64,000 nt of DNA. It comes from Flavobacteriales bacterium. GTDB taxonomy: Bacteria > Bacteroidota > Bacteroidia > Flavobacteriales_E > Vicingaceae. The stretch spans positions 53,994 through 117,993 of the forward strand of contig JADYZM010000028.1 in assembly GCA_020853105.1 (NCBI GenBank), read 5' to 3'. Positions within the stretch are counted from its first letter, which is position 1. Every line of letters starts with the position of its first letter. The notes beneath the pieces were generated by a model, which saw only the letters and a list, made by a program, of their open reading frames with translations, was not told the origin of the DNA and made no database searches. Shown here one piece after another: positions 13,837 through 48,813 of this stretch. Made by a program: the position numbers and the translations under genes.

Positions 13837-14391
13837 TTGATCAAAGATAAAGTAATATTAGGAATAGACCCAGGTACCAATATAATGGGGTATGGTATTA
13901 TTCATATAAAAAATAGCAAAACAGAATTAATCGCTTTAGGTTCAATAGAGCTTAATAAACTTGAAACTCATTTTTTAAAACTACAAAAAATATATGAACG
14001 AACAAGCTATCTTATTACTGAATACAAACCAGATGAAGTAGCTATCGAAGCCCCATTTTTAGGTAAAAACCCTCAATCAATGCTAAAATTAGGTCGGGCA
14101 CAAGGGATTTCAATTGCTGCAGCACTTTCTCATAACATACCGGTTTTTGAATATTCTCCTTTAAAAGTAAAGCAATCCATTACAGGAAAAGGCTCTTCAT
14201 CAAAAGAACAAGTTGCAGGTATGTTAGAATCAATGTTAAAAATGAAAGAATTGCCCAAGCATCTTGATGCAACAGACGGATTAGCTGTTGCTGTTTGCCA
14301 TTCTTTTCAAAATCAAAAAAATTCTACTGATAAAAGTTACTCAAGCTGGAAGGCTTTTATAACACAAAATCCTAAAAGAAAAATTTCTTAG
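13837..14391 (+). CDS. ruvC: Holliday junction resolvase RuvC
   Basis: RuvC cuts Holliday junctions symmetrically with RuvAB during recombination repair. The N-terminus reads VILGIDPGTNIMGYG (Asp11, first metal ligand), followed by VAIEAPFLGKNPQSMLKLGRAQG with the second acidic ligand, and HLDATDGLAVAVCH supplies the last ligands. The track's start at 13741 adds 32 residues rich in Asn and Cys that come from antisense of the neighbouring gene; I place the start at TTG 13837, which gives MIKDKVILGIDPGT and a normal 184-aa RuvC. A non-ATG start next to a divergent non-ATG start is unusual. It ends convergently with a 4-base overlap on the HIT gene. Confidence 0.9.
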   Translation: MIKDKVILGIDPGTNIMGYGIIHIKNSKTELIALGSIELNKLETHFLKLQKIYERTSYLITEYKPDEVAIEAPFLGKNPQSMLKLGRAQGISIAAALSHNIPVFEYSPLKVKQSITGKGSSSKEQVAGMLESMLKMKELPKHLDATDGLAVAVCHSFQNQKNSTDKSYSSWKAFITQNPKRKIS

Positions 14392-14777
14392 GAATTAAGA
14401 ATCACATTTTGGATATCTTTCATTTCAGCATCTGAAAGTTTCAGTTTTGGTCGTGAAAAATTGATATCTTCAACACTCTGTAGGGGTAGCAAATGAATGT
14501 GAGCATGTGGCACTTCAAGTCCAATAACTGCAATACCAATTCTTTTACAAGGTATTGCTCGTTTTAACCGGTGAGAAATTTGTTGAGCAAAACTCCACAA
14601 TCCTTTGTATGTTTCTGAATCTAAATCAAAAATGTTATCCACTTGTTTTTTAGGAACTACCAAAACATGTCCTTTTGCTAATGGAAACACATCTAAAAAA
14701 GCTATATAATCAGTGGTTTCTTCAATGATATAAGCAGGAATTTCTTTTGAAATAATTTTTGAAAATATAGACTCCAT
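14388..14777 (-). CDS. HIT-family nucleotide-binding hydrolase
   Basis: A 129-aa cytoplasmic protein with the histidine-triad motif HAHIHLLPL near residues 92-100 and the N-terminal SIFSKIISKEIPAYIIEE block of Hint-type members. The family hydrolyses phosphoramidates such as AMP-lysine or AMP-NH2. Length is normal. The start codon abuts the greA stop (1-base overlap), a pairing of greA with a HIT gene that is common in Bacteroidota, so the two are co-transcribed. Confidence 0.93.
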   Translation of the reverse strand: MESIFSKIISKEIPAYIIEETTDYIAFLDVFPLAKGHVLVVPKKQVDNIFDLDSETYKGLWSFAQQISHRLKRAIPCKRIGIAVIGLEVPHAHIHLLPLQSVEDINFSRPKLKLSDAEMKDIQNVILNS

Positions 14778-15250
14778 TATCTGCTAATTTCTATTACTTC
14801 AAAATTTACTATTCCAGTAGGAACTTTTACCTCAACTTTATCACCAACAGATTTACCTAATAAGGATTTCCCTATTGGAGAATCTACTGAAAGTTTTTTT
14901 TCTTTCAAATTGGCTTCTTTTTCAGAAACCAACATGTATTCCATTATCATCTTATTAGCAAGATTTTTAATTTTTACTTTAGATAAAATCAATGCTTTTG
15001 AAGTATCCAGTTGTGACTCATCAATTATTCTGGCATTTGCAATAATAGTCTCTAATTTAGAAATTTTGAGTTCTAACAATCCCTGAGCTTCTTTTGCTGC
15101 ATCATATTCGGCATTTTCAGACAAATCGCCTTTTTCTCTAGCCTCAGCAATTTGTGCAGAGATTTTAAGACGTTCAACGTTTTTTAATTGTTCCAGTTCG
15201 TGGGTAAGTTTTTTTAACCCCTCCTCGGTGTAATAACTAACTTGTGACAT
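14777..15250 (-). CDS. greA: Transcription elongation factor GreA
   Basis: The 157-aa protein rescues backtracked RNA polymerase by stimulating transcript cleavage. The N-terminal coiled coil ends with the catalytic tip DLSENAEYDAAKEAQ (the two acidic residues that bind the active-site magnesium), and the C-terminal globular domain carries SPIGKSLLGKSVGDKVEV, the GreA/GreB signature. Length matches GreA. It is the first gene of a greA-HIT pair; a terminator hairpin for the preceding operon lies in the 76-base upstream gap. Confidence 0.95.
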   Translation of the reverse strand: MSQVSYYTEEGLKKLTHELEQLKNVERLKISAQIAEAREKGDLSENAEYDAAKEAQGLLELKISKLETIIANARIIDESQLDTSKALILSKVKIKNLANKMIMEYMLVSEKEANLKEKKLSVDSPIGKSLLGKSVGDKVEVKVPTGIVNFEVIEISR

Positions 15251-15273: not shown

Positions 15274-15301
15274 AAAAAGAGAACGCATGATACGTTCTCT
15301 T
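15274..15301 (-). terminator. Rho-independent terminator after the TonB receptor/PorV-family operon
   Basis: On the minus strand AAGAGAACG pairs perfectly with CGTTCTCTT across a 7-base loop, followed by TTTCGCTTT. It sits 25 bases past the stop of the PorV/PorQ-family gene and before greA. Confidence 0.7.
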
Positions 15302-15326: not shown

Positions 15327-16409
15327 TTATAAATCCAAACGGATACCAATACTATGTGAGCCTGAAAAACGTTCAGTCATTTCATAAGCATAGTGCAATC
15401 CGAAAGTTGTTCCATTTTTTCCAAGTGGAGCAATAACTGATGCTCCAAAGGAAGGACCGGTAAAAGCAGTAGTTCTTAATGTTGAATCGAACCAAGTTGT
15501 ACTTTCTAACACATAACCGGCTCTCAACATAAATAAATTTCTAAAACCATATTCTAATCCAACTCTGTATTGGTCTTTTGTAAAAGAATTTGCTGTAAAA
15601 TTACCGGCAACAGTTACTCTGTGGTCAGCTTTAATCTGATTTGATGAAGAATCTTTAACAGGAGCGATATAAAAATCATAGGTTGCTCCAATGTTTAAAG
15701 ATGAAGGCAATTGATAACTAGCTGATTTACGTTGTTGAGTTGCGGTAACACCTGTTTTTATATCAACGTTGGTAAACGATAATCCTTCACCTGATGATTG
15801 AAGAGAAGGTCCAACATTATTTAAAGATATGCCGAACTTTATTCTATCATTTTCTCCGGTAACATATTTAACACCGGCATTAAATGCAACTCCTCTTGTG
15901 TCAATATTTGATATAGACTCATTTATTACACGCAAAACAAATCCACCGGAAATACTATTTGAGAATAATTTTGCATAAGCAACATCAAAATTCAAATAGC
16001 TTGGAGAAAATGTACCTACACCGCCTTCTGGTAAATTAACAGTTGTAATATCAATATCACCAAAATCCATTGACATCACAGCAATACCAAGTACACCTGT
16101 TTCACCAAGTTTTTGAGAGATACCAAACGAATTGATTTTAGTATCACTACCAACTAACCAATTTTTATGAGTAACCATAGCTTCAGTTTTAGTTGTAAAT
16201 GCTAAACCAGCTACGTTCAGGTTCATTGCCTCTAATCCTATTGCAGAAGCAGTATTAGCACCGCCAAAACCAACACTTCTAACCCATGGATTTATAAGTA
16301 ATTGAGATGACCCCGCTTCACCAGCTCTGTTTTCATTTCCGGCAAATGCATTTTGTGAAGCAGTAAATCCAGCTAAAAACAAGGTTATCAGTATTTTAAC
16401 ATTCTTCAT
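15327..16409 (-). CDS. PorV/PorQ-family outer-membrane beta-barrel protein
   Basis: A 360-aa exported protein with signal peptide (about residues 1-23), then GEAGSSQLLINPWVRSVGFGGANTASAIGLEAMNLNVAGLAF, the characteristic start of the PorV/PorQ family (FadL-like barrels). The remainder is alternating beta strands and ends with a barrel-like SHSIGIRLDL. PorV shuttles T9SS cargo from the translocon to the attachment complex; PorQ/PorZ pairs act at the surface. This copy is a paralogue of the window's true porV (54572-55789) and sits behind a TonB-dependent receptor and a giant secreted protein, suggesting a role dedicated to that unit. Function is inferred. Confidence 0.8.
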   Translation of the reverse strand: MKNVKILITLFLAGFTASQNAFAGNENRAGEAGSSQLLINPWVRSVGFGGANTASAIGLEAMNLNVAGLAFTTKTEAMVTHKNWLVGSDTKINSFGISQKLGETGVLGIAVMSMDFGDIDITTVNLPEGGVGTFSPSYLNFDVAYAKLFSNSISGGFVLRVINESISNIDTRGVAFNAGVKYVTGENDRIKFGISLNNVGPSLQSSGEGLSFTNVDIKTGVTATQQRKSASYQLPSSLNIGATYDFYIAPVKDSSSNQIKADHRVTVAGNFTANSFTKDQYRVGLEYGFRNLFMLRAGYVLESTTWFDSTLRTTAFTGPSFGASVIAPLGKNGTTFGLHYAYEMTERFSGSHSIGIRLDL

Positions 16410-16472
16410 ATTCTTTACTTTTTATAGTCAAATGCTTATTATAAGCTTAAAGTTAAATTATTATCTAAATTA

Positions 16473-19400
16473 TTACAATCCATTTAAGTCGGTTGGTCGA
16501 GTTACTCCAAACCATTTCAGAACCACTTCGCCAACATCAGGAACTTCAACATGTATCAAATAAACACCACCTGCAACAGGAATTCCTGCATGATTTTTCA
16601 AATCCCAATCTAAACTAGCTAAAGAATTTGCTTTAGTATATCTTCTCATTAAAGTACCGCTAACATTATAAATAGATATTGTACAATTCTCTGGAAGATT
16701 AGTAATTTTTATTCTATTATCAAATTTATCCGATTCGTATTCTGAATAAGCATAATATGGATTTGGTACTGCTCTTATTTTGCTTAACATATCTTTTGCA
16801 GCTTGATTAACACCGGATTCGGCAGCAAAATCATCCATACTAAACATATACATCGGACGTTTACTATTGCCTGATGGCGAAGGAGCCAATGAATTAGCTG
16901 TTTCAAAAGAACGATATGGTGTTTTTACTCTCAACTTAACTCTTGCATCGGTTGCTAATAAAGACTGACCGCCTGCAACAAGTGGAATACCACACCACAT
17001 AGCTGTTTCCGCAATATATCTTGCAGTTTTTCTACAAGTTTTTTGTATTGAGGCTATACCTGATGGAGCGACATTTCTATTGATTGATAACAAACTATCT
17101 AAATATTTGCCTTGATCATATCTTGAATTAAACACATACGTATAGTGTCTAGAACCATGTACAGTGTCAAGTATCATATTTAATGTATCAAAACGGAACA
17201 TATCGCCATCGGGATTCCACTTCATGTCTCTTCCATTGTGATTGATAAAACGGCTATCTTCTCCAAATGCCATATTTAATCTTTCACCAGTTTCAATATT
17301 AATTGCGTAACCGGGGAACCAACCCATACCATAACCTATATTACCAAGTGGATTGAGTGAGCCATCAGGAACACCGTTTTTATCAACGTTCAATGATTTA
17401 CGTTTTGCAAAATATCTTGCATTTCCTTCATTTTGAGTAGAATCAAAACCGGTTTCAAAAACTACACATCTTGTCCATTTGCTTTTATCATTTGTAAAAA
17501 CAATATCAACCGATTGTAAATTTTTAAGATGTGATGCATATATACCTACAACAGAAGTATCAATATCAGGATCTTTAGATGGAGAATACTGATAATCAAC
17601 TGTTGAATAGAATTTTGCAGCAGTATTATTTACCCAATAATGATCAAGAATACCAGGTGCATTTCTTACGTCTTTAAAGGGTAATGTAACATTATCTCCA
17701 TTTGATCTGAATAACGCGTGTGCAACTAAACGATATGGAGCCCATGTTCCTCTCAATATATCTTCAAAGTCTTGATTTGGGTCAAAAAATACACCATTAT
17801 AAAAATAATCGTTGTATGGACTAACATAAGGGTTTGGATTTCCTCTGTCGTAATCTTGACTACCTGAACGAATCCAATTCAAATCATTTTGACTATCAAA
17901 ATCATAAGCTCCGGATAACCAAGGCTTAGTTGGGTCAGAGTAAGAAACACTTGCTGAAATGAATCCGCTTTTATTATCAGTTTCTTGCCCGGGTGATTCA
18001 GATTGTCTGATTGTTACAGAAAACCCTAAATCGGCAAATACTTGTTCATTACGCATAGTAATGGCTCTTTCGGAATAAATTGTATCGGAACCTTCAATTA
18101 ATCTCCAGTAAGCATCATCAATCGGGTTTAAAATTGGTGCAGATGTAGAATCTAAAAATTGAAGATAGTAAGTGCCTTTTTTCACATTCAATGGGTCAAC
18201 AACTTTAACATCAATAGGACCTAATCCTGCTTGGTAAATCGGATAATTCATGAAATTACTAGAAAGAATTTGTAACTCAGAAGCATAAGTCAATTCTAAA
18301 GTTAATCCTCCATTTCCTGCACCTTCAATTCTTGTTACTTCAGGAGAATCACCATAATCAGAATTTAGGATTGTACCTCCATTTGTCTGTTTTGGGGTAT
18401 GCGGAATACCGCTATATGTTTTAATACTACCACCTGTTGAGTTGGTTCTACTAGCTAAGTAGGGTTTCAACTGACCTCCCAAAGAGAAATTTTGTGGGTC
18501 AACTGTTTTCCAATTGTTATAAGCATAAGCAATAGCAATAAAATGATACGTCAAGTGATTAACTAATTTTTTATTTGTTCCTGTTGCGAATAAATCTTCT
18601 GTAACACGGAATGAATGAGAAATTCCTTTGTTATTTCCTTTTACCATTTCTTTAGGAACGTTGGACAGTATAGATTCATCATACGTGTAGTTAACAATTT
18701 GGGAAATATTATCCTCTATGTCCACTTGTGCTACAAGTCTTGAATAGTTTGGATCGTCAAGCTGACTCACAGAAACAGAAGCATTTTTTACTTGATAGAT
18801 TTGATATCCTTGGAATTTATAATATTTCAAAGTGTCTTTATCAGCATCAGTTCCTTGATAAACTCCATCTAAAGTATCCGGAATTGAAATAAACGGATCT
18901 TTTAAATTAGCCCCTTCTTTATAGTTATTTGAAATTTGATTATTGTTTGATATAAACAAAATCAGCTCATTTTCTAATTCTTGAATGGTTACATCAGGAG
19001 CATTCGGTCCTTCCAATATTTTGAAGCAGTTATCAAACAAAGATTGGGCTTTATCATCAGCAACACGCAATGCGTCGAGTGAAGCAGTATTATCTCCACT
19101 AACTGCTCTTCCATATACAACTCCAACAGTTAAATCATTAACAGCTCCGGGTAATAATGTAAATGGACCTGCAGATTGAATAAAACGACGGTCACCGGGT
19201 GTATTCCCTGCTTCCACCTCAGTCCATTTTGTAGGTGTTGCAGCAACCCCTTGAGTGCTCCAAAAATAGGGGTCAGATTCACCGGGAAATAAAATATCAG
19301 CTTCAGGTCCTAATCCGGTTGAAAGAGGATTACCATCACCTCCCCAACGCATTCTTCCTACTCCATCAAGCCATTTTCCTTGTAGATAACTGTAATAATC

Positions 19401-20705
19401 GGTAGCATTTCTTACATCACCATTACCATTGATAACCGCTCCGATATTATAATATACAAATTTACGCATACCATAACGTTCGTTATCAATAATACCATCT
19501 CCGTAGCCAATTCCTAATCCAGAATAAGGAATACCATTTTCAGAAATTGCTAAAGGAATATTTGTGGTTAATGGATTGTCTTTGTTATCGTTATCCATGT
19601 ATGGTCCTTCAAAGAAATCAACACCAATTGCTGGTGGAGTTTGTCCAAATCCGCTTACACCATTAGCATCTTCGTCATTGTTATCACCATTATAAGCATA
19701 TCCTAATCCTCTAGAAGCATCACAACCAACATAATCATCTGCCGAATTACCTAAGTCTGCATCAACCCACTGACCAAAATATGTTCCTGTAAAAGTAAAA
19801 CTAGAACGATTTATTAATTCGTAATTATAAAAGGTCATGTTGTTGATTTCATCATTGGTAGCAAAAGCAAATGCTTGACCTCGTATTTCCATACCAATAG
19901 AAACACCTTGAGATTCAGAGTGTATATTCCCTTTATCGTTAAAAACAAACCAAAGTGTAGTATCACCAAATAAGCGAATGTCACGTGTAGTTCGACAATC
20001 AACCAGCCCTAGCAAATCGTATTTAGGATAGTCTCCTTGACTTGGGTCGTAAAAGTCATCACCATCATTGTCATAAAAAGGAGCTAAATGATCAGCAACA
20101 TAATAGGATTGTTGTTTCTTTTTTACAGTATTTCCTTTAGCAGGATAGTTTAAAATGGCATAAGGAATTTGATAATCCGGGTAAGCACTTTGGTCAGCAA
20201 ACCATGCAACGAAAGCATTAACCATAGCACGAGAAATACCAAAGTACTGATCAAATATTTCACAAGTAGAAGCTGTAACTTCAGCATTTGCGTCTAAAGG
20301 TCCTGGCCAAAAATCATTACCAATATTTCTAAAACTAACAGCAGCTACTTTTAACTGTCCATTCAAGTCGATGCCGCCAATCCATAGAGCTCCTGCATAA
20401 ATGAGAGTATGTAATGGATCAGATTCTGAGTTCTGTTTGGGAACGTTATATGCAGCAATATTGTTTGAACGATCTTGCCACATACTACCTCCTGTTCCTT
20501 CTATACGTGCCCGAACATTATTAAATTCAAGAACAGCAATAGCTGTAGCAGGTGAACAACCTGCAGCAGGAGTCGGGTTATTACCTCCGCCTTTGTTATT
20601 TCCTTTATTATTTCCAATTGCTGCATTCAGTTGCAATGAACTTATCAACAACAGAGCAATAATCACTGAAGCAATTGTTGTTTTATGGTTACGTCCGTTT
20701 TTCAT
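16473..20705 (-). CDS. Giant secreted protein with FlgD/T9SS-like C-terminal domain (1410 aa)
   Basis: A 1410-aa protein with a signal peptide (about residues 1-28) and a Gly/Asn-rich linker (NNKGNNKGGGNN). The body contains Asp/Asn-rich calcium-loop-like segments (YDNDGDDFYDP, NGDNNDEDANG) and a conserved block RRFIQSAGPFTLLPGAVNDLTVGVVYGRA, which I associate with a family of large secreted Bacteroidota proteins of unknown function. The last 90 residues (RAVPNPYYAYSE, ISIYNVSGTLMRRY, GIPVAGGVYLIHVE) form an immunoglobulin-like FlgD/T9SS type A-like domain, but it continues with VLKWFGVTRPTDLNGL rather than ending in the usual Lys-rich strand. Gene order with the TonB receptor (27-base gap) and the PorV-family gene (63-base gap) implies one operon. 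Confidence 0.8.
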   Translation of the reverse strand: MKNGRNHKTTIASVIIALLLISSLQLNAAIGNNKGNNKGGGNNPTPAAGCSPATAIAVLEFNNVRARIEGTGGSMWQDRSNNIAAYNVPKQNSESDPLHTLIYAGALWIGGIDLNGQLKVAAVSFRNIGNDFWPGPLDANAEVTASTCEIFDQYFGISRAMVNAFVAWFADQSAYPDYQIPYAILNYPAKGNTVKKKQQSYYVADHLAPFYDNDGDDFYDPSQGDYPKYDLLGLVDCRTTRDIRLFGDTTLWFVFNDKGNIHSESQGVSIGMEIRGQAFAFATNDEINNMTFYNYELINRSSFTFTGTYFGQWVDADLGNSADDYVGCDASRGLGYAYNGDNNDEDANGVSGFGQTPPAIGVDFFEGPYMDNDNKDNPLTTNIPLAISENGIPYSGLGIGYGDGIIDNERYGMRKFVYYNIGAVINGNGDVRNATDYYSYLQGKWLDGVGRMRWGGDGNPLSTGLGPEADILFPGESDPYFWSTQGVAATPTKWTEVEAGNTPGDRRFIQSAGPFTLLPGAVNDLTVGVVYGRAVSGDNTASLDALRVADDKAQSLFDNCFKILEGPNAPDVTIQELENELILFISNNNQISNNYKEGANLKDPFISIPDTLDGVYQGTDADKDTLKYYKFQGYQIYQVKNASVSVSQLDDPNYSRLVAQVDIEDNISQIVNYTYDESILSNVPKEMVKGNNKGISHSFRVTEDLFATGTNKKLVNHLTYHFIAIAYAYNNWKTVDPQNFSLGGQLKPYLASRTNSTGGSIKTYSGIPHTPKQTNGGTILNSDYGDSPEVTRIEGAGNGGLTLELTYASELQILSSNFMNYPIYQAGLGPIDVKVVDPLNVKKGTYYLQFLDSTSAPILNPIDDAYWRLIEGSDTIYSERAITMRNEQVFADLGFSVTIRQSESPGQETDNKSGFISASVSYSDPTKPWLSGAYDFDSQNDLNWIRSGSQDYDRGNPNPYVSPYNDYFYNGVFFDPNQDFEDILRGTWAPYRLVAHALFRSNGDNVTLPFKDVRNAPGILDHYWVNNTAAKFYSTVDYQYSPSKDPDIDTSVVGIYASHLKNLQSVDIVFTNDKSKWTRCVVFETGFDSTQNEGNARYFAKRKSLNVDKNGVPDGSLNPLGNIGYGMGWFPGYAINIETGERLNMAFGEDSRFINHNGRDMKWNPDGDMFRFDTLNMILDTVHGSRHYTYVFNSRYDQGKYLDSLLSINRNVAPSGIASIQKTCRKTARYIAETAMWCGIPLVAGGQSLLATDARVKLRVKTPYRSFETANSLAPSPSGNSKRPMYMFSMDDFAAESGVNQAAKDMLSKIRAVPNPYYAYSEYESDKFDNRIKITNLPENCTISIYNVSGTLMRRYTKANSLASLDWDLKNHAGIPVAGGVYLIHVEVPDVGEVVLKWFGVTRPTDLNGL

Positions 20706-20732
20706 ATATCTAAATAAAATAAGTCGTTCAAA

Positions 20733-23700
20733 TTAAAAATTTAGTTGTAATCCCAATCTAATTCTTCTTGGTAAAGAAAAATTACCCGGGTCTAATAATT
20801 TAGCTTGGTATAAGTCTCTATAGGCTTGCTCGTCAGGATTACTAGCAATAAGAGTTTGCCATTCAGCAGCAGCTAGAAATCCGTCATCATCAGGATTACC
20901 GGTAGCAGAATAAACATCAAGAATGTTTTTTGTATCTAATAAATTTAATACTTGAAGATACACATTCAAATAGGCTTTTGTTCTCTCTTCGCCTTCACCT
21001 TTACCCCATTTCAAGTCAATATTTTTATCAATTTTTAAATCAACGTTGGTTTGCCATGGTAAACGTGAAGAATTTAAAGATGCTTCAATTGGACTGGAAA
21101 ATGCTCCAGTGATTACTGCACTGTTCACAATTCTAGATGTTTTGGTGTATGGAGTACCAGAAGCTGTTCTAACAATAAGGTTAAGCCCGGTATTGGATAA
21201 TATATCTTTACCAAAAAGTACAGGTCCGTTGTAACTTTTTCCTGAACCATATCTATAATCGGCAGAAAGTACAAAAGCATGACGTTGATCAAAAGCTAAA
21301 GGTATCAGAGTTTTCAAATTACTGTTACCGCTAGATACTAAGTTTAAAGAAGTTGTTGAACTAGAACCCGTTCCATCAGCAAATTGTAGTGTATAAGATG
21401 CTCTCATTGAGAAGTTTTTTTGTCTTCTTAAATCATAAGAAAAAGTTAATCCTTTAACTGTTCCAAAATCTTGATTACCGTAAGATAAATAGTTTTCTGG
21501 ATAAGCACCGGTTACTCTAATTGCCTGAACCATGTCTCTTTGTTCGCGATAGAAGGCTGCAATTTTAACAGAAGAATAATTATTTAATTTTTGTTGAAAC
21601 CCTAATTCGTAGTCGATTGTTTTTTCGGCTTTCAAATCAGGATTGTTGATTGTATTATTTGTATTTTGAATTAACAAATAATCAATCAATTGTAAACTGC
21701 TGTTTGATGATGGTCGTTGTGTTAACACATCGTAGTGAGCAAAAAACAAAGCTTCATCTGAAATCGGGAATGAGAATGCAATACGAGGAGAAACATTTAC
21801 CTGTGGTTCATAATCCTTAAATGAGGCAGGACTTAAATCTTTCAAAACTATATTATCGTTAGCATCAACCAACCATGGGTTTGGAGTTCCTGTTGAATGT
21901 AGAACTGTTGGGTCAGTAATTAACTTACCATCAGCATCATACCATGTATCTCCATCTCGATAACCCACAATGTTACTAACTTTTGGGTCAGCTGCATCAG
22001 AAACATAAACAACAAAATCATTTCCTATATTTGATGGTTTGTCTGGAATATTACCAACTTCAGCAACAGTTTTAACAGGGAACATAGAGTATTTATCAAT
22101 AAGAACAGGCTGGTTAGCGTCGTATCTATCAACACGAACACCTATATTAAAAATTAAATCTTCAAAGGCAAATTTATCTTGAATATAGCCCGCCATATAA
22201 ATTGGTTTAAATGCACCTTGCTCTCTCAACAGATTCCCATTTGCATCTTTTTTTGTAAAGAAGTCATCTAAACTGGTGTTGCCAGATAATTTTTTACCTG
22301 TATAATCATATCCATAATAGTTGATACCATTTTGCCCATAGTTGTTTAACAAATCTTCGGCAGTAAAATCAGAAATTTCCCATAAACCATTACCATAAGA
22401 ATCAAAATCAATCCAATCAGTACCTTTCTCAGATAGTCCAAGTTTTTTTCTGATATTTTTATCAAATTGAGTTTGGTTTGGTCCATAATAGGGTCTGAAA
22501 GTGTATTCATATACTGTATCAATTCCACCACCGGAATTTGGAACATAAAATTCTTGAGTTCCAACATCGTAGTTTCCTTGTGTGAAATCTCTATTGTCTA
22601 TATGAGTATTAACTAACCCTCTACCAGTAGTCCATAAAGCACGTGGAGCAATATTATAATTGCTTGTAGAACGTTGTTCGTATTGGAATCCGATTTTAAT
22701 AGAATGGCCTTTGATTTCAGCACTACCTGAAGTAGTGATTCTTAATTGGTCACTTGTTGTCATTTCATATCCATTATATGGAGTACCCATAGATGACCAC
22801 AAGTTATAAACAGAACTTGGGCCATCTCCATTTAATAATCCACCATTTCCTTGAACTTGCACAGGTCTTTCCCAGTGTCCCTCCATTTCATTTGCAAAAA
22901 TTGTATAGTAATTATCGGTATAATTAGCTAGGACTGGGTTTATTTCATCTCTTTGGAACTGATATTGAACTACCTCAGGAGTAGATAAATATCCTCTCAA
23001 AGTATCCACTACATTTCCGTTAGCATCGGTTGGATAAAATGTCTCGAAATTATAGGTATTTTGTCTGATTGATTTGAACTTTCCAACATAACCATAGTTA
23101 GCAAGTTGATCTTGATGTTGCTCAGATTGAACTTTTTGGTACACATTTGAATAGTCAGCCTGTAATGAAACAAAAGCATTTTTAATTAGTGAAGGATTGT
23201 CTTTATCCTCGTTGTTATCAAAACGTTGAGTAAAACGAACATACGAACGCCAAGAACGATCAATTAATTGGGGATTGTTTTGAGAGTTTAATAATGCAAA
23301 ACTTCGAACATAAGCCAATCTATCGCTATAATCAAATGTACCTCCCAAAGTAATTGTTGTATTTTTAGTAGGAGAAATATCAATTTTTCCTGCTAAATTC
23401 ATACCTAAAGCCCCCACATTTTGACGAAATTTGATTGTTTCCATATCTTTAGCTTTGATAAAGGAACCGTTATTTATTATACCGCTACCACCTTCATCAA
23501 TACGTCTTGAATATGGATTAGAATTTAATTCAGCCATCATTTCGTTTGTGAGTTTGTAATTATCAATTGCAGAAGGTCTTGGATCAACCTCATGTTTAAA
23601 CTCACCTGAAATAAAGAAACCTGCAATAGCGTCAGTTTTATTTCCTGCTGTATCTTTTTTGGTTAAAATAGGACCTGCTAAATTAAAACCTAACAAGTTG

Positions 23701-24467
23701 AAACCAAATTGGTCTAATCCAACTACTTTTTCACCGCTTTTAAACCCTGAAGTTAAATATTCAAGACCACCAAACCATTCTTTAGAAGCACCTCTGGTTG
23801 TGATGCTGACAATACCACCTGTAGCATCACCGTATTCAGCTGGCATACCACCAGTAATAACAGTTACTTGCTCAATTGCAGCATTTGGTAAATTTGCAGA
23901 ACCTCTAACACGAATACCATCTATATATGTATCAGTACCCGAACTTCTAGAACCCCTGATATTATACGAACCATCTTCGTTGACATTAACACCACCAACA
24001 GTTTGAGCAATAGATGCAGCAGAACGTCCTGGCATTTTAGCAATATCCTCTCTACTAACAGTACCTCCTGTTGAGGTTTGATCTTTTGAAATTAATGGCA
24101 CCTCATAGTCAACCAATTCAAATTTATCCAAATCAATACCTTGTCCTGCCTTTATATCAGCAAACGTGATTTTACCATCATTTACAACAATACCTGATAT
24201 TTTTACAGGTTGATATCCAACATAAGATGCTTGAATCTCATACGAACCCGGTGTTAACGCAGAAATGGTATATTTACCATCCATGTCGGTCATAGAGCCT
24301 GCAACCTGAGCTCCTCCTTTAAATACCACAACGTTGGCAAATGGGAGCGGCTCATTGGTTGCCTTATCAATCATTTTTCCTTTAATAGTACCACCTGATT
24401 GTGCTTGAGCTAACAACACAAAAAACATGGAAAATGTAAAAACAGCTAGTTTTTTCAACATATTCAA
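20733..24467 (-). CDS. TonB-dependent receptor with carboxypeptidase-regulatory-like N-terminal domain
   Basis: The 1244-aa outer-membrane receptor has a signal peptide (MLKKLAVFTFSMFFVLLAQAQ), an N-terminal extension (GTIKGKMIDKATNEPLPFANVVV, about residues 27-110) typical of SusC/RagA-type and other Bacteroidota receptors, a plug with GGVNVNEDGSYNIRGSRSSGTDTYIDGIRV and GGMPAEYGDATGGIVSITTRG, and a long barrel ending in the terminal phenylalanine RIRLGLQLNF. The family imports ligands using TonB energy. No SusD-like partner is present; the next gene encodes a giant secreted protein, so the ligand or partner may be that protein. The upstream gap has a TATAATTTG sequence, a one-base-longer variant of the promoter box. 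MLKKL two codons in is an alternative start. Confidence 0.92.
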   Translation of the reverse strand: MNMLKKLAVFTFSMFFVLLAQAQSGGTIKGKMIDKATNEPLPFANVVVFKGGAQVAGSMTDMDGKYTISALTPGSYEIQASYVGYQPVKISGIVVNDGKITFADIKAGQGIDLDKFELVDYEVPLISKDQTSTGGTVSREDIAKMPGRSAASIAQTVGGVNVNEDGSYNIRGSRSSGTDTYIDGIRVRGSANLPNAAIEQVTVITGGMPAEYGDATGGIVSITTRGASKEWFGGLEYLTSGFKSGEKVVGLDQFGFNLLGFNLAGPILTKKDTAGNKTDAIAGFFISGEFKHEVDPRPSAIDNYKLTNEMMAELNSNPYSRRIDEGGSGIINNGSFIKAKDMETIKFRQNVGALGMNLAGKIDISPTKNTTITLGGTFDYSDRLAYVRSFALLNSQNNPQLIDRSWRSYVRFTQRFDNNEDKDNPSLIKNAFVSLQADYSNVYQKVQSEQHQDQLANYGYVGKFKSIRQNTYNFETFYPTDANGNVVDTLRGYLSTPEVVQYQFQRDEINPVLANYTDNYYTIFANEMEGHWERPVQVQGNGGLLNGDGPSSVYNLWSSMGTPYNGYEMTTSDQLRITTSGSAEIKGHSIKIGFQYEQRSTSNYNIAPRALWTTGRGLVNTHIDNRDFTQGNYDVGTQEFYVPNSGGGIDTVYEYTFRPYYGPNQTQFDKNIRKKLGLSEKGTDWIDFDSYGNGLWEISDFTAEDLLNNYGQNGINYYGYDYTGKKLSGNTSLDDFFTKKDANGNLLREQGAFKPIYMAGYIQDKFAFEDLIFNIGVRVDRYDANQPVLIDKYSMFPVKTVAEVGNIPDKPSNIGNDFVVYVSDAADPKVSNIVGYRDGDTWYDADGKLITDPTVLHSTGTPNPWLVDANDNIVLKDLSPASFKDYEPQVNVSPRIAFSFPISDEALFFAHYDVLTQRPSSNSSLQLIDYLLIQNTNNTINNPDLKAEKTIDYELGFQQKLNNYSSVKIAAFYREQRDMVQAIRVTGAYPENYLSYGNQDFGTVKGLTFSYDLRRQKNFSMRASYTLQFADGTGSSSTTSLNLVSSGNSNLKTLIPLAFDQRHAFVLSADYRYGSGKSYNGPVLFGKDILSNTGLNLIVRTASGTPYTKTSRIVNSAVITGAFSSPIEASLNSSRLPWQTNVDLKIDKNIDLKWGKGEGEERTKAYLNVYLQVLNLLDTKNILDVYSATGNPDDDGFLAAAEWQTLIASNPDEQAYRDLYQAKLLDPGNFSLPRRIRLGLQLNF

Positions 24468-31560: not shown

Positions 31561-33948
31561 CTAAAGTTTAACTATCTTCTTTACAACGTAGTTTTTATTA
31601 TTATCAGAAATGCTGATGAAATAAACTCCGTTTTTATAATTATTTGACAATTGAATTGTTTCTTGATTCATGGTGTTCACTTGCTCGACAACTTTTCCTG
31701 CAATATCCATAATTTGAATATTCAGTTTACTTGATTTTATTTGTTGAGGTATTTTGATAGTTAAAAAAGTACTAAATGGGTTAGGGTATATTTCAAAATC
31801 TTGGAAAGTTAAAATTTCATCATCTCCAACAGCACCATTAGTAATTTCAAATTTATCAAATCCGCCCTCAGCAACATGTGGTGATGCATTCAAATCACTA
31901 ACAGATACAGAAATTCTCATATTATTTGTTGGTGTTAAATAATCAGAAATTTTAAATGACTTGTTTACCCAACTTGAAACACCTGGTGTAGCAAGAGTAA
32001 CGGTTTCAATAGTAACATTTGTTGAGCCGTTATCCAACTTAACAAGTAGTCTATCATTTGGAGCACCTGAACCACCACCATTAAAAAACCATCTGAAATA
32101 ATTTACATACGGTTCCGAATAAGATGTTAAATCAAACACAGGTGATGTTATTATGGTTTCACCCCCATCTACATCATCATCTCCTGCTGAACCTCCGCCA
32201 TTTCCAGTAACATAAGCCTCTTCATTACAATCAGTTGTAACATCAACTTCAGGGTTGGATTGAGATGAGTTTAACATTGTTCCAGATGGTTCTCCTCTAA
32301 ACCAAAGTCCATCGGTAGCAGTTCCTGTTCTGGTCCAACTAAAATCAAATGAAAAATCGTCATAATACCCTTGGTTTAATTCGATTGTATAAGTATTATT
32401 TGCTCCATTGACTAAAATATTTTGTTCACATTTAGTAATATACCCCCATTTTCCGGCAGTAATGGTATATGTAGCTTCAGTAAAATTATTAAACACATAT
32501 ACGCCAGAAGCATTGGCTGTAACTGTATTTGTATATCCTGAATTATATACCTTAATTTGAGCATTTGGAACAGGATTTTGAGTTTGTGCATCAATTACGT
32601 TGACTTGAAATTGGAAAGGAACTAAAGGTTTTAATTGAACATTCAATAAAGTTGGATCACAAGTTAATGAGTTTAAACTAACTCCTGTTATTGTTTTTGA
32701 TTCGTATCCTGATTTTGTAAAGGATATATCATAAGTACCTGTTTGAGCTATACCTATTTGATATTCTCCAATAACATTTGAATTTGAATTAATTGCAGTA
32801 GAAACAATATTAACTAAGACACCATTTATTGGTGATGCAGTTACTGAATCTGTTACAATTCCCTCTAATTTTTGAGCTCTGGTATAATTAACATCTAAAA
32901 TAAAAAGTCCATTTTCAATATCACTTGCAATTATATTTCCAGAAGGGAAATATGGGAAAACACCCCAACAGCCGTTAAATCCATTACCAGACATAGAAGG
33001 AGAAGTGTCATAATTTCCAACTTCAACCATATTTGTTGGATCACAAACATCATGTACAGTTACTCCGTCGCGATAGTATGAAGTGATGGCATAATTATTC
33101 AAAAAATATGTGTTGTGAGGAATTACCATTGAGCCAGGGTTAGATTGCACCCTGTCCAACTCAGTAATATTATTTATATCACTTACATCATAAGCTGTAA
33201 CAAAAGAATTGCTTTCCTCATCAGTTGTAAACAAAGTTGTTCCTTCATCATTAATCCAAGTATTATGAGTAAAAACATTAGGAGTTATTTGAGTAACCCA
33301 AGTTTGAGGGTTTGCTTTATTCGAAACATCAACTACAATAAAAAAACCATCATTAATTGCTGCTGCCCACAATGTATCTCCCCTCACATAGCCATCATGA
33401 ACATAAAAATCATCATAAGTGCCAACCTCAAAATTTGGGTCTGAAATAGGTTTGTTTAGGTCTAAAATGATTGTATTTTTTGGGTTGCTTTTGTTATCTG
33501 AACCAAAAAGGTAACAGTAACCGTTTTCATCGATAAAAACGGTGTGTGCAGTAGTGAAAGGAAAATTATTTCCTGTATAATTTACAAAAGATAAAGAATT
33601 AGAGCCTGGTAGCGGAGATAAATCAATTATCATTAAACCATCATCACCTTCATTAGTAATATATGCCTTATCTTGGTAAACTTTTACCTCTCGCCATATC
33701 GTGCTGACTCCGGTTGCAAAATAAATCTGAGTAGGGTTTGCTGGGTCAGTAACGTCAACAACAGCAACACCTTCTTCCATACCCACAATTGCATATTCAT
33801 TGCCCATTTCATCAACATAACCCCAGAGATTAGCTAAATCACCTTTTCCGGGAAAAGTTAACTGCCCTAATTTACTCATATTCAGTTGTGAAAATGAAGG
33901 TTGAAAAAGGAATACAAAAATGAAACCGATTATTATCTTTTTTAACAT
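31561..33948 (-). CDS. Choice-of-anchor B family secreted protein with T9SS type A sorting domain
   Basis: The 795-aa protein has a signal peptide, then a propeller of LVIVD-like repeats (GYVDEMGNEYAIVGMEEGVAVVDVTDPANP, AYITNEGDDGLMIIDLS), which is the choice-of-anchor B pattern (about residues 25-350). Two carboxypeptidase-regulatory-like domains follow (LEGIVTDSVTASPINGVLVNI, VNVIDAQTQNPVPNAQIKVY), then a jelly-roll-like segment (about 545-700) and a C-terminal sorting domain (FEIYPNPFST, NGVYFISISDNNKNYVVKKIVKL). T9SS export and cell-surface attachment or release is expected. The role is unknown; such proteins often bind metal or partner proteins. Confidence 0.88.
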   Translation of the reverse strand: MLKKIIIGFIFVFLFQPSFSQLNMSKLGQLTFPGKGDLANLWGYVDEMGNEYAIVGMEEGVAVVDVTDPANPTQIYFATGVSTIWREVKVYQDKAYITNEGDDGLMIIDLSPLPGSNSLSFVNYTGNNFPFTTAHTVFIDENGYCYLFGSDNKSNPKNTIILDLNKPISDPNFEVGTYDDFYVHDGYVRGDTLWAAAINDGFFIVVDVSNKANPQTWVTQITPNVFTHNTWINDEGTTLFTTDEESNSFVTAYDVSDINNITELDRVQSNPGSMVIPHNTYFLNNYAITSYYRDGVTVHDVCDPTNMVEVGNYDTSPSMSGNGFNGCWGVFPYFPSGNIIASDIENGLFILDVNYTRAQKLEGIVTDSVTASPINGVLVNIVSTAINSNSNVIGEYQIGIAQTGTYDISFTKSGYESKTITGVSLNSLTCDPTLLNVQLKPLVPFQFQVNVIDAQTQNPVPNAQIKVYNSGYTNTVTANASGVYVFNNFTEATYTITAGKWGYITKCEQNILVNGANNTYTIELNQGYYDDFSFDFSWTRTGTATDGLWFRGEPSGTMLNSSQSNPEVDVTTDCNEEAYVTGNGGGSAGDDDVDGGETIITSPVFDLTSYSEPYVNYFRWFFNGGGSGAPNDRLLVKLDNGSTNVTIETVTLATPGVSSWVNKSFKISDYLTPTNNMRISVSVSDLNASPHVAEGGFDKFEITNGAVGDDEILTFQDFEIYPNPFSTFLTIKIPQQIKSSKLNIQIMDIAGKVVEQVNTMNQETIQLSNNYKNGVYFISISDNNKNYVVKKIVKL

Positions 33949-37772: not shown

Positions 37773-39698
37773 ATGATAGTCAGAGTTTCCATATTCTGCT
37801 TTGTTCTTCTAAATGCAGTTATAGTTTTTGGTCAAGCTACTTTGCCCCTTTCACGTACAACGTGGAATTCAGGAGCGCCTTTAGGCTGGACTGATGGTAA
37901 CGGAGGCTCACCTGCTTATACGTCTTCATTTGCTTGTTCAGGTAGCAATGGAGGAAGACTAGACAATACTGCTGAATATTATTTAGTTTATTTTTCTGAT
38001 AGCCCAGATGTTTTAACTTATACGATAAAAGTATCAGGAGTAACAACATCTTCTCTTTTAGTTGAAGAGTCGGTTGATAACATAACATTTTCGACAGTAG
38101 TAAATCATACCCCATTACCAACGAGTTGTACAACATACAATTACACTTTAGCCCCAAGCTCCAGATATGTGAAATGGACATACACAAAGGTTTCAGAAAA
38201 CTTAACTATTGACGATGTATCAATAACCAAAGTTTTATCATGTACTCCGGCTGCACAACCAACAGTAAATTCTTCTAACCTATCTTTCCCAGATACAACT
38301 TGCAGTAGTATCGACTTATCTTGGACTAACGGTAATGGTGCAAATAGAATTGTTGTTGCTTCAACATCACCCATAGCAGGAACACCTGTTGATCAAACAA
38401 ATTATATTGCAAACGCATCATTTGGTTCTGGGAGCACAATTGCGGCAAATGAATATGTGGTTTATAATGGTAGTTTAAATAGTTTAACGGTTACAAATTT
38501 AAACGCATCAACCACTTATTATTTTGCAATATTTGAATATAACGGAGTTAGTGTAAATTGTACCGAAAATTACCTTACAAGCTCAGTATTGACTGGAAGT
38601 TTTACAACTCCTAGCTGTCCAATTCAAACCTGTTCTGAAATTACCGGAATATTGGTTGATGCTTGTGGCGGAGCGAGTGAAGGAATAAATGAATTTTTTA
38701 CGTTTACTAATGGTGCAAAAACTTTGTCTGTTGATAGTCTGACAGCTAATTTCCCAAGTGGAGGAAGCTTTTGTAATTCCGGCTGTGGTGCTCAGACGTG
38801 GGTAACTAATCCTGCTTATGTTTCATCTTTAAACACTACTGCTGCATGCCCGGGTTTATTTGTTGAAGTTAATCCTATTCCAGCAAATGCAAATGTTATA
38901 GTTTTTACCGGACAAACACCAACCTATAATTTTGATTTCTCAGGACTATGTGGTACAGGTCCATATTATGCTGTATTCGCAAATAACACCAATATTGGTG
39001 GGCGGTTTGCAAATTATGCAGCTTGTGCATCCAGAACTCTAACTGTTAGTTTTGGCACTTCATGTTCAGATACGGTAAATTACGACAGATGTTTACTCGC
39101 AAATTCTGATGGAGCTTATGTTGCTTATGATGCTTCTGGAAATGCTGTTTACGACAACGATGGTTGTACGCCAATAGAATTATTACCAATTACATTAATT
39201 AATTTTAAAGGAAAAGCCGTTGGTAGCTCAAATATACTGGAGTGGGAAACTTCAATAGAAATAAACAATGATTATTTTACTATTGAACGATCAAATGATG
39301 CTTTTTCTTTCAATGAAATAGGAACACAAAAAGGCTCAAATAACAGCACCACAACTCAACATTACAAATTTATAGACGATAACCCCCATAATGGGATTAG
39401 TTATTACAGGTTAAAACAAACCGACTATAATGGAGAATTCAGTTATTCTTCTATTATTTCAATTGATAATTTTAATGCCGGTTATTTGGTTTGGAATACA
39501 TCATCTTCTTTATTCATCAAGTCTGAAATTGAAAATGAACAATGCCAACTATTTTTATACAACTGCATAGGTAAACTAGTATTGGTAAAAGAATTTATTT
39601 CTGAAGCTCAAATCAACACTACTCAATTTCCAAGTGGTTTTTATTTGGTGAAAATAAAAAGTTCTAATTCGCTATTCTCAAAGAAAGTACGGTTTTAA
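37773..39698 (+). CDS. Secreted protein with Fn3-like segment and T9SS type A sorting domain
   Basis: A 641-aa protein with a signal peptide (about residues 1-21), an N-terminal beta module (residues 25-150), a fibronectin type III-like part with ASTTYYFAIFEYNG, and a Cys-rich segment (residues about 285-465, with CSEITGILVDACGG and GTSCSDTVNYDRC), likely disulfide bonded. The C-terminus has FKGKAVGSSNILEWETSIEINNDYFTIERS and a sorting domain ending GFYLVKIKSSNSLFSKKVRF. T9SS secretion to the surface is expected; no enzymatic motif is seen. It ends with a 4-base overlap on convergent bshC. Confidence 0.85.
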   Translation: MIVRVSIFCFVLLNAVIVFGQATLPLSRTTWNSGAPLGWTDGNGGSPAYTSSFACSGSNGGRLDNTAEYYLVYFSDSPDVLTYTIKVSGVTTSSLLVEESVDNITFSTVVNHTPLPTSCTTYNYTLAPSSRYVKWTYTKVSENLTIDDVSITKVLSCTPAAQPTVNSSNLSFPDTTCSSIDLSWTNGNGANRIVVASTSPIAGTPVDQTNYIANASFGSGSTIAANEYVVYNGSLNSLTVTNLNASTTYYFAIFEYNGVSVNCTENYLTSSVLTGSFTTPSCPIQTCSEITGILVDACGGASEGINEFFTFTNGAKTLSVDSLTANFPSGGSFCNSGCGAQTWVTNPAYVSSLNTTAACPGLFVEVNPIPANANVIVFTGQTPTYNFDFSGLCGTGPYYAVFANNTNIGGRFANYAACASRTLTVSFGTSCSDTVNYDRCLLANSDGAYVAYDASGNAVYDNDGCTPIELLPITLINFKGKAVGSSNILEWETSIEINNDYFTIERSNDAFSFNEIGTQKGSNNSTTTQHYKFIDDNPHNGISYYRLKQTDYNGEFSYSSIISIDNFNAGYLVWNTSSSLFIKSEIENEQCQLFLYNCIGKLVLVKEFISEAQINTTQFPSGFYLVKIKSSNSLFSKKVRF

Positions 39699-41384: not shown

Positions 41385-44300
41385 ATGAAATCGAATATCC
41401 AGTTAATCAACACTTTAACAATCATCTTCATATTGTTTTCCTCTAACTTATTTTCGCAACAAGAAGGGAAAAATGGATACATGATACCAGTAAAAGATAC
41501 AATTAGAATGTTTATCGTATATGTTGAAGTTGATTACACATCTGGGAACGACCCGTTTACTCCAAGCTATTGGCCGATAGATCTCAACGGTAAAACTTTA
41601 CCACCAGCAGATGCCGATAGTTTATTCGATCCGGTTGTTCCGGTAGATGGAATCCTCAAAGGATGGATTTCAGGGATATATCAAGATGCCTCTATGAATA
41701 ATTATTACTTGTTAGGAGATTATTACCCAGAAGTAATTACTGTTCCTGAAAATTTTCAAGATATAGAAACAGTTATAGACTCGTTAAATAATCGTGACCC
41801 ACTTTCTCCAACATTAACTACGGCACATGGGTTAACGCTAAATGATTTTGACTATTACCAAATAGAAGGAACAAGTGCTGGTCAGGTTAAACCAAAATAT
41901 TCAAACAATAAGATAGATGTTATATTGTTTATTTGGCGAAATAAGAGCGGTTGGATTTGTACTGCTGGCAACGGACTTGGTCAAAGCTCTGGTTATTTTA
42001 ATACTGCTATTAAAAACATGAATGGTTTTGAATCTTCAGCCAGTTATAATGCTTGTGGTGACGCAAAAGGTTCAATAAATATTATACTGGCAGAGCATTT
42101 TCATGGAATGTATGGGGGCAATAACTGGCATACTGCTGGTGGAGCAGGTACGCATAATTTTATGGGAATTCCACATACTTATAGTCTTTCAGGTCAATCA
42201 CAATCTACTATGAGGTTTGTAAATGGATTTGACAGATGGTTTTTAGATTGGAAGCATCCTTTAAAAACCCACGTACTGAGTGCAAAAGACATTAGCATGA
42301 ATGAAGTTTCTTCTGATTGGTCTATACAAAATCATCCGAACGATTCTATTTTTGTATTAGAAGATTTTGTTACCACAGGAGATGCTATTCGTATAAAGCT
42401 ACCACACATTGAAAACACAAATGCCCTTCCTCAATATTTGTGGCTAGAAAACAGGAGAATGAATACCCGTTATGATGTTTTTTATGATGAAAGTTGTGCC
42501 GACAATAATAACGGAATGTTTCCAAGAGGAACTCCAGGATTATATGCTTTTATACAAGTAGGAAGAGAAAATAAAATAGGCACGGGAATCTACAATGGAA
42601 ACGCAAGTTATATTTTTCCATTATCTGCAGAGGGCAGCTATGATTTTAATTATCGTTTTGACTTAACTCAAGCTGGAGATGTTAACATTTGCGGTAATTG
42701 GGGTAATCCAAACATACCAATAGACAAAGCAACCAGTCTACCAAATGCTTTTACAGGACATTCGGATTTGTATAATATTCCTCCAAACTTGAATGGGTCA
42801 AATATTATTGTAAATCCAGGATCATTTGCTGGTTTAAGTGAAGTATTTAATGGCATTGTGGTTCACAATGCCAATATGTTTGGTGATTGGGAGGATGCTT
42901 TTTGCTTTGCAACCAATAATACTAAAATCGGATTAGCCCACAACCCTGCTCCAGTTACGGTTTATACTCAAACAGCTAATTATGTAGACAAAACTGTTTC
43001 TTTATCACCAACAAATAATAAAACGATTTGGTTAAATGGTATTTCTATCGAAATTTTATCGGAAACCCCTAACATGATTCTAAAAATAAAATGGAATGAT
43101 TATGAAATTGATAACGATGTGAGATGGTGTGGAAACGTAGTTTTAAAAAATGATGTTAATGACCCTGATAACAACATTTCAAAAATTAACTTAAAGATGG
43201 GAAAAACTCTTAAACTTGACCAAGGTACCGCTCCATCAAAACCAACGGCAACAATAACTCAAGACAACAAGTTTCTTTTTGCCGACCCAACCATACTTAC
43301 CTTAGAGAGTGGAACAATAACAACTATTGAAGATGGAGCTGAGTTATTAGTCAATAATGAGTCCACCTTACATATTAAAAGTGGAGCTACAGTTATTGTA
43401 AAAGGTTCTGGAAAAATTACCATAAATAACGGTTCTTTTTTATGTGTTGAAAGTGGTGCAAATATTAATTTACAAACAGTTAATAGTCAAATTAATATTG
43501 TAGATGGCAATATTGGTATAAACCCAATCTTAAGCTCATCAGGAAATTGTATAGGATTTTGTGAAATAGCCAATTTAATTACTGGACTGGGAAGTATAAC
43601 AGGAAAAACCATTGCCGATGCTGGGATTGACCAACTAGCTTGTCCAAATCCTGCAAATAACATTTTAGGAGGCAATCCGTCTGCAGTATCTGGAGTTGCT
43701 CCTTTTACTTATTCGTGGTCGCCAACAACAAATCTAAATGATCCTACTAGCTCAAACCCATTTTTAACAACTGCATTAACAACGAACTCTAGTTATGTTT
43801 TACAGGTAACAGACGCTAATGGTTGTATAGGAGTAGATACCATCAATTTAACTTATAATCCATTAACAACCATTACAACAAGCACAACAAACTCACCTTG
43901 CCCTGGCACAGGAACAGCTACCGTAAATGTTTGTGGTAACCCTGATGCTTATACCTATTATTGGAATGATCCACAATTTCAAACGACACAAACAGCAACA
44001 GGGCTTTTTTCGGGAACTTATACCGTTCAGGTAACTGATGCTAATGGAAATGTTACAACTGTTAATGCTATAGTAAATCCTACGCATACGACCCCAGTTT
44101 ACGATTACGTAAACCCAGTAATAACAGGAAGTGTAACATGGAATAATCCAAGCTCAATCATTAAAGTAAAGGGTGAAGTAATAGTCGAAGCTGGAGGAGT
44201 TTTAACCATTAACAGCAGTAATGTGGAATTTTCATACGATTTAATCAACGAATTGGGTGTCTTCTACCCGAGAGCTAGAATAACTCTCCAACGAGGTGGA

Positions 44301-48288: not shown

Positions 48289-48813
48289 ATGGAAAATATA
48301 CTAAAATATAAACAGCAGTCGGGTTTTTTCGTTCCTCTAAGCAAGTCCCCCTTCGGGGGATTTAGGGGGCTTCCAATAGCATTGCAAACTAACAAAAAAG
48401 GCAGCATTAATGCCCGAAATCTGTTAGACATGGCGTTTCATAAAAAAATAAAGGAGAGTTACCATTTTCCACAACATAATAGCAACAATACACGATTAAT
48501 TAACAATATAGTGCCGGCAACTGATAACCAACAGTTAATTAACCAACAACCAGCAACAGCATATCAATTAACCAATTACCCAAATCCTTTTAACGAAAGC
48601 ACAACCATACAGGCTGTATTACCTGAAAACAGTATAAATACTTATTTGGTAATGCATGATTTAATGGGGAGAGAAATTTACCGAATATCGTTAAAATCAG
48701 GGGTAAACAAACAAGTGATTGATAAAAATGTATTGCAACCGGGTATCTATCTCTATGCTATTGAAGAGAATGGTGTTGTTGTGAGTAAACAAAAACTGGT
48801 AAAATTAAAATGA
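48289..48813 (+). pseudogene. Remnant A' : truncated C-terminal copy of protein A with T9SS domain
   Basis: This 174-aa frame lacks a signal peptide. Residues about 32-60 (LQTNKKGSINARNLLDMAFHKKIKESYHFPQ) match protein A near residue 1660 (IQTTKKGSINARNLLDMAF), and a type A sorting domain follows (NYPNPFNESTTIQ, PGIYLYAIEENG). It therefore looks like the tail of a second copy of gene A whose first 1650 codons are lost. The new N-terminus is encoded by a dispersed repeat (SKSPFGGFRG). Its sorting domain is only loosely similar to that of A. It keeps ATGA coupling to B'. Without a signal peptide it should not be exported; it may still be translated as a coupling leader for B'. Confidence 0.75.
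48343..48372. repeat. Dispersed hairpin repeat (TCCCCCTTCGGGGGA type)
   Basis: TCCCCCTTCGGGGGA forms a perfect 6-base stem and is followed by TTTAGGGGGCTT. The pattern is one I know as widely dispersed in Bacteroidota genomes. Here it lies within the A' remnant; its GC content contrasts with the surrounding AT-rich DNA. Confidence 0.65.

Follow-up and report, generated by a model that had tools for sequence, protein, structure and literature searches.

A conserved trio of a TonB-dependent receptor, a giant protein with a predicted type IX-type C-terminal domain and a PorV-family barrel as a candidate outer-membrane complex in Bacteroidia

Organization of the locus

The window (the whole stretch of 64,000 nucleotides analyzed) comes from a Flavobacteriales bacterium with a genome assembly of 2.87 Mb in 88 contigs. 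Three of its leftward genes (Table 1) encode a TonB-dependent receptor (TBDR), a giant protein of 1410 aa (BIG) and a PorV paralogue of 360 aa (PV), and TBDR-BIG-PV is referred to here as the trio. By ORF coordinates, the intergenic gaps are 27 bases between BIG and TBDR and 63 bases between PV and BIG, and the hairpin that follows PV (15301-15277) is the longest stem on the minus strand of the region. The three leftward ORFs, the two short gaps and the shared terminator had all been described in the initial annotation and are all borne out, the sole correction being that TBDR probably starts with the ATG at 24461 rather than with the TTG at 24467. TBDR consists of a signal peptide, a CarboxypepD_reg domain, a plug and a barrel, with LGLQLNF as its C-terminal end; the Plug (48.9 bits) and TonB_dep_Rec barrel (43.6 bits) matches both exceed their cut-offs. 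It belongs to a specific subfamily that has, as a rule, one orthologue per genome. No SusD-type gene was found between or beside the trio genes. The neighbors of TBDR are BIG and a divergent lpxK, which agrees with the earlier description of a receptor lacking a SusD partner.

The window also carries the true PorV of this genome and the adjoining PorU sortase. Five ordinary type A CTD (C-terminal domain) proteins above the Pfam cut-off (31561-33948, 37773-39698, 41385-46796, 46793-48283 and 48810-50285) are located close to PorV, PorU and a PorP/SprF protein (59862-60824), so this is a region rich in type IX secretion system (T9SS) genes.

Table 1. Positions in the window of the trio, of domains within its products and of related features
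Feature	Position	Strand	Remark
TBDR gene	20733-24467	-	1244 aa ORF
CarboxypepD_reg, TBDR N-terminal (residues 27-105)	24153-24389	-	PF13620, 62.7 bits
Plug domain, TBDR residues 133-219	23811-24071	-	PF07715, 48.9 bits
BIG gene	16473-20705	-	1410 aa ORF
Presumed Sec signal peptide, BIG residues 1-28	20622-20705	-	judged by eye from sequence
Conserved N domain, BIG residues ~49-600	18906-20561	-	alignment; model pLDDT 90.9
Predicted T9SS-type CTD, BIG residues 1313-1410	16476-16769	-	Foldseek on model
Conserved Lys1397 and extra C-terminal tail, KWFGVTRPTDLNGL	16476-16517	-	specific to partners of PV-clade barrels
PV gene	15327-16409	-	360 aa ORF
Presumed mature N-terminus of PV, GNENRAGEAGS	16308-16340	-	conserved
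Terminator-like hairpin	15277-15301	-	11-pair stem, then T-run; between PV and greA
greA	14777-15250	-	downstream syntenic neighbor across much of the class; outside the trio unit
HIT-family gene	14388-14777	-	second syntenic neighbor; named from its own sequence
True PorV of the same genome	54572-55789	-	PF19572, 249.6 bits
PorU sortase adjoining PorV	55889-59686	-	NF033707, 1386 bits

The giant protein and its barrel neighbor

No lipobox was found at the signal peptide of BIG. Five cysteines of the N domain that follows are invariant at the level of the order, as judged from the alignment, and the calcium-loop-like segment that had been noticed in the protein is real: residues 211-230 (YDNDGDDFYDPSQGDYPKYD), a putative Ca loop, are conserved as DxDGDGxYDPxxGDYPxYD. 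Structures were modeled for residues 30-780 and 600-1410 from 66-row alignments (mean pLDDT 90.9 and 84.7, respectively). A Foldseek search with the N-terminal part returned poor matches only, to beta-sandwich domains of glycoside hydrolases/phosphorylases (TM 0.24, rmsd ~10 Å). Because these matches are poor, no enzyme role is claimed for BIG, and the N-domain fold yields neither a ligand nor an enzyme clue. No match to a sortase or a propeller was found in BIG.

By sequence, the C-terminus of BIG gives a weak FlgD_ig match (15.8 bits, cut-off 27) and does not reach the cut-off of the type A CTD model TIGR04183 (18 bits over residues 1332-1388, cut-off 23), and a sequence search against solved structures found only a weak match with PorZ (E = 0.22). 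For the model of residues 600-1410, the best PDB match is PorZ (5m11, E = 3.3×10−5), over the CTD, followed by the translocon-trapped CTD of RemZ (8gl8_D, TMt 0.69), with other T9SS CTDs and FlgD further down the list among weaker unrelated matches. The model matches the Ig-like CTDs of RemZ, NucA, RgpB, PorU and PorZ with probability 1.00. The FlgD/T9SS-like CTD first assigned to the 1410-aa protein is thus sub-threshold in sequence scores, and its predicted fold is that of a T9SS CTD. This CTD is strongly conserved, with columns 1321-1410 averaging 66-72% majority residue, and a near-invariant lysine, Lys1397, is found in at least 90% of the order-level alignment. The chain runs 13 residues past Lys1397, which gives it an extra C-terminal tail of ~10 residues; the consensus of the whole end is KWFGVxRPxDLNxF, and typically LKFxVVKxRxQLxxF outside the class. 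Every one of the 95 PV-clade barrels has a partner with the long tail, against none of the 11 valid barrels from elsewhere in the PorV family; these counts come from related, non-independent sequences, so a Fisher value for this contrast is too strong. Twelve non-PV pairs had been taken and 11 are valid, since at L288 a spurious overlapping ORF had been picked; the tail is missing from the genuine L288 partner too. Among the tail-less non-PV pairs is the PorU of this window, the partner of PorV.

BIG has short paralogues (~600-730 aa) that share its N domain and have an ordinary type A CTD end (KKVVKQ). One of them is encoded in the same genome (L070:7986-10136, contig C77; TIGR04183, 51 bits), and at another locus (L045:3910-12073) a standalone full-length BIG gene is followed by two short paralogues in tandem. 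No PV was found beside short paralogues with ordinary CTDs in the larger loci that were read. Contigs of Fluviicola and Crocinitomix carry an additional full-length BIG gene between PV and greA (L141:14746-18939 and L168:13420-17658). In the congener G043 (L052:6694-10907), an intact TBDR and an intact PV flank a BIG that is divided into two ORFs (720 and 722 aa) overlapping each other, which may reflect a frameshift, an assembly error or a true split.

PV passes the PorV/PorQ family model NF033709 (PorV_fam; 126.6 bits, cut-off 90) and fails the models of PorV (NF033710; 59.6 bits, cut-off 250), PorQ (NF033711; 56.2 bits, cut-off 220) and PorV2 (NF052325; 31.4 bits, cut-off 325). In a tree of 73 PorV-family proteins, built by a quick method with SH-aLRT support only, 29 PV proteins, from the class as well as from beyond it, group together (SH-aLRT 99), and PorV, PorQ and PorV2 form one group each (99-100). 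Together, the model scores and the tree rule out a reading of PV as a divergent form of PorV, PorQ or PorV2. PV therefore stands as the initial annotation had it, a 360-aa PorV-family barrel distinct from true PorV: it has its own clade, it fails the PorV model and a separate PorV exists in the genome. The conserved start of the presumed mature PV has the consensus GNEDRAGEAGA in the order and is of the RxGTAGA type in many proteins outside the class. The host genome has six PorV-family matches, namely PorV, PorQ (contig C4, 371.6 bits), PorV2 (contig C39, 530.9 bits), PV and two weak ones including a FadL-like protein. PorV, PorV2 and PV each adjoin a protein with a T9SS-type C-terminal domain, as predicted for BIG. 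PorV2 is directly upstream of PorU2 (1678 aa, CTD-like end; L072:4118-10300, on C39), for which the function given by NCBIfam is putative.

Distribution and co-divergence of the trio

BIG-type proteins were found in all 46 genomes of the host's order, where nearly every complete locus has the order TBDR-BIG-PV-greA-HIT. In a sample of 295 genomes of the class, 245 have BIG, 231 have PV and 233 have a member of the TBDR subfamily; PV and TBDR occur together in 221 genomes, one without the other in 22, and neither in 52. TBDR and PV are on one contig in 106 of the 122 genomes in which both coordinates were listed and compared, and in all 106 TBDR is ahead of PV on the same strand, the median distance between them, 4.2 kb, being enough to accommodate BIG. 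The other 16 genomes have them on different contigs, some at contig ends. PV and TBDR are single copy in most genomes and occur in ~122 of the 156 sampled genera of the class, from very different habitats, and the trio is absent from several families represented by high-quality, zero-contamination genomes. Among ~73 BIG genes at named loci with room on both sides, 52 have both partners and 16 have neither; the named loci include Crocinitomix, Brumimicrobium, Fluviicola and Bacteroidales MAGs. Four contigs of Chryseobacterium gleum MAGs (L115, L122, L139 and L153) carry a trio or a BIG resembling Crocinitomicaceae-type loci, and their names are possibly wrong.

Outside the class, 20 loci were picked from the best BIG matches, and in 17 of them a PV match directly follows BIG and a TBDR match precedes it in the same orientation (one TBDR is cut by the contig end). 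In one of the 17 (L196), the barrel belongs to a different clade and its partner lacks the BIG tail. Two of the other three loci are cut by contig ends, and the third is an array of BIG-like genes with neither partner. Several diverged copies of the trio per genome are found outside the class, and eight non-Bacteroidia genomes have 6-16 PorV-family matches each. In two genomes (G353 and G471; L277-L295), most of the PorV-family paralogues that were read are preceded by a CTD-bearing protein, and for several there is a TBDR further upstream, which gives the impression of a multiplied cassette. In a scan of nine partners of these paralogues, seven matched the PorZ model at its C-terminus, one of these marginally (E = 0.07), and the remaining two gave no match. 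Three TBDRs upstream of such paralogues were confirmed by Pfam.

The trio is thus not a local oddity, since it recurs across the class and beyond, and the gene order in it is not due to chance. The initial annotation had proposed that its conservation across Bacteroidota be checked, and had held that homologues never being linked would speak against a unit; linkage is in fact common, with the order kept in all 106 same-contig genomes and at most loci outside the class. The idea of one cargo per PV fared less well. The trio is a conserved unit, but some genomes have extra full-length BIG genes without an adjacent PV or TBDR, and the C-terminal tail is retained in at least one of these; with 16 named BIG genes having neither TBDR nor PV beside them, the proteins do not form a strict one-to-one partnership.

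The pairwise distances of BIG, PV and TBDR over 44 loci correlate at 0.81-0.83, and the partial correlations are 0.68-0.73 when greA and HIT are held constant, whereas greA and HIT correlate at 0.34 after BIG is removed. This correlated divergence is compatible with BIG, PV and TBDR being in contact and is no proof of it. PorU is present in 273 of the 295 class genomes. Because many PorU-positive genomes lack the trio, and PorU is missing from just four TBDR-positive genomes, of which three are ≤73% complete, the trio seems to need T9SS and not the reverse.

A candidate surface complex and its alternatives

Several described systems pair a surface protein with a barrel. In P. gingivalis, PorU:PorV and PorQ:PorZ each consist of a CTD-bearing surface protein held by a PorV-family barrel (PMC5562754). 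BIG and PV resemble these pairs in joining a presumed surface protein with a PorZ/PorU-like CTD, its fold nearest to that of PorZ, to a PorV-family barrel, and they share the adjacency and the matched lineages of CTD protein and barrel seen in attachment-complex-type pairs; however, PV forms a separate clade, the operon has a TBDR, BIG has the extra tail, and it lacks a sortase or propeller match. PorU2/PorV2 (NF052324, NF052325) is also a CTD protein encoded beside a PorV-family barrel, but PV is in a different barrel clade and PorU2 is sortase-related. For type B substrates, the gene of a cognate PorP/SprF shuttle, which is needed for their secretion, often lies directly downstream (PMC12618676). 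The order of BIG and then its own barrel, and the idea of a specialized shuttle or anchor, are similar (PMC12618676; PMC9143113), whereas PV is of the PorV family and the BIG CTD has a predicted type A fold. The trio resembles SusC/SusD in having a TBDR with CarboxypepD_reg and a large presumed surface partner in the same operon, and differs from it in the absence of SusD and of a lipobox on BIG, in the T9SS-type CTD and in the additional barrel. BamG, a FadL-family member of the Bacteroidota BAM (PMC12578637; PMC12611786), is likewise a barrel, with a conserved tail at its N-terminus, that holds a surface protein, but among NCBIfam models PV matches PorV_fam and not BamG. No published description of a trio complex was found in a literature search restricted to open-access papers.

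The interpretation that we consider probable, with some reserve, is that the trio makes one outer-membrane surface complex, in which BIG would be exported by T9SS, its CTD held by PV, and TBDR would be the third member. BIG would cross the inner membrane via Sec and the outer membrane via the type IX translocon, with the CTD as export signal. This CTD, instead of going to the general PorV and being released, would dock into PV, which would collect BIG and retain it on the surface, as PorQ does for PorZ and PorV for PorU, and the conserved tail past Lys1397 would be the piece that fits PV. We infer T9SS export and capture by PV because BIG-PV pairs a type A-like fold with a dedicated PorV-family neighbor; retention through the CTD and binding of BIG to both PV and TBDR are suggested in the same way. 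With TBDR as its partner, BIG would most likely act at the cell surface as a receptor or lid in the TonB-driven uptake of a large or polymeric ligand, and BIG on TBDR would be a T9SS-delivered equivalent of SusD on SusC. Import of a large ligand appears to be the likeliest role because the receptor keeps the plug and the CarboxypepD_reg domain, yet it is the least certain step of the proposal.

The near-universal single copy in varied habitats would be equally compatible with nutrient uptake and with a housekeeping or general envelope role. The trio might instead be an outer-membrane module for structure or biogenesis, active in attachment, sorting or assembly of T9SS or surface proteins, with TBDR as a scaffold or energy coupler rather than an importer. 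The presence of one PV and one TBDR in most genomes whatever the habitat, the PorZ-like CTD of BIG and the fact that PorV-family members are otherwise parts of T9SS or FadL/BAM (PMC12578637) are in line with such a module. We regard it as rather unlikely, given that the trio is missing from many PorU genomes and hence is not needed for T9SS as such, that the multiple diverged copies outside the class resemble substrate specialization, and that the receptor retains its plug and CarboxypepD_reg domains.

It is still less probable that PV is a mere shuttle pulling BIG from the translocon, after which BIG would be cleaved and released or linked to lipopolysaccharide, with TBDR merely co-transcribed. 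The gene order is the same as that of a type B substrate and its downstream PorP/SprF-type shuttle (PMC12618676), but TBDR is as tightly tied to the trio as PV is, both in linkage and in the divergence correlation, and the CTD of BIG is strongly conserved and structurally best matched by PorZ, a stably held protein. The existence of standalone BIG genes, together with the near-invariant lysine of type A signals in the BIG CTD, would even allow for no functional unit at all, that is, three separate genes in one operon with BIG as an ordinary PorV cargo and PV as an unrelated FadL-like pore. This is very improbable when the order is retained across the phylum, the separate PV clade tracks the tail of the BIG CTD, and, in the larger loci that were read, PV is not found next to the short BIG paralogues whose CTDs are ordinary.

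If the trio is indeed one surface complex, it would be a widespread exception to the accepted rule that PorV is the single shuttle for type A T9SS signals, the type A CTDs being all recognized by PorV according to PMC12618676, it would link T9SS directly with TonB-dependent receptors, and the correspondence between tail and barrel would offer a simple, testable specificity rule. The absence of the trio from several families may explain why it has not been studied. A broader generalization is put forward tentatively, at slightly less than even chances: the trio may represent a general, undescribed class of Bacteroidota cassettes, each with a TBDR, a CTD-bearing surface protein and a barrel recognizing the CTD of its own partner, of which the copy in the window would be the ancient one kept in most sampled Bacteroidia, while other classes would have expanded it to many per genome. 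In that case, T9SS would supply the surface half of each transport complex, which would be anchored by a PorV-type barrel of its own.
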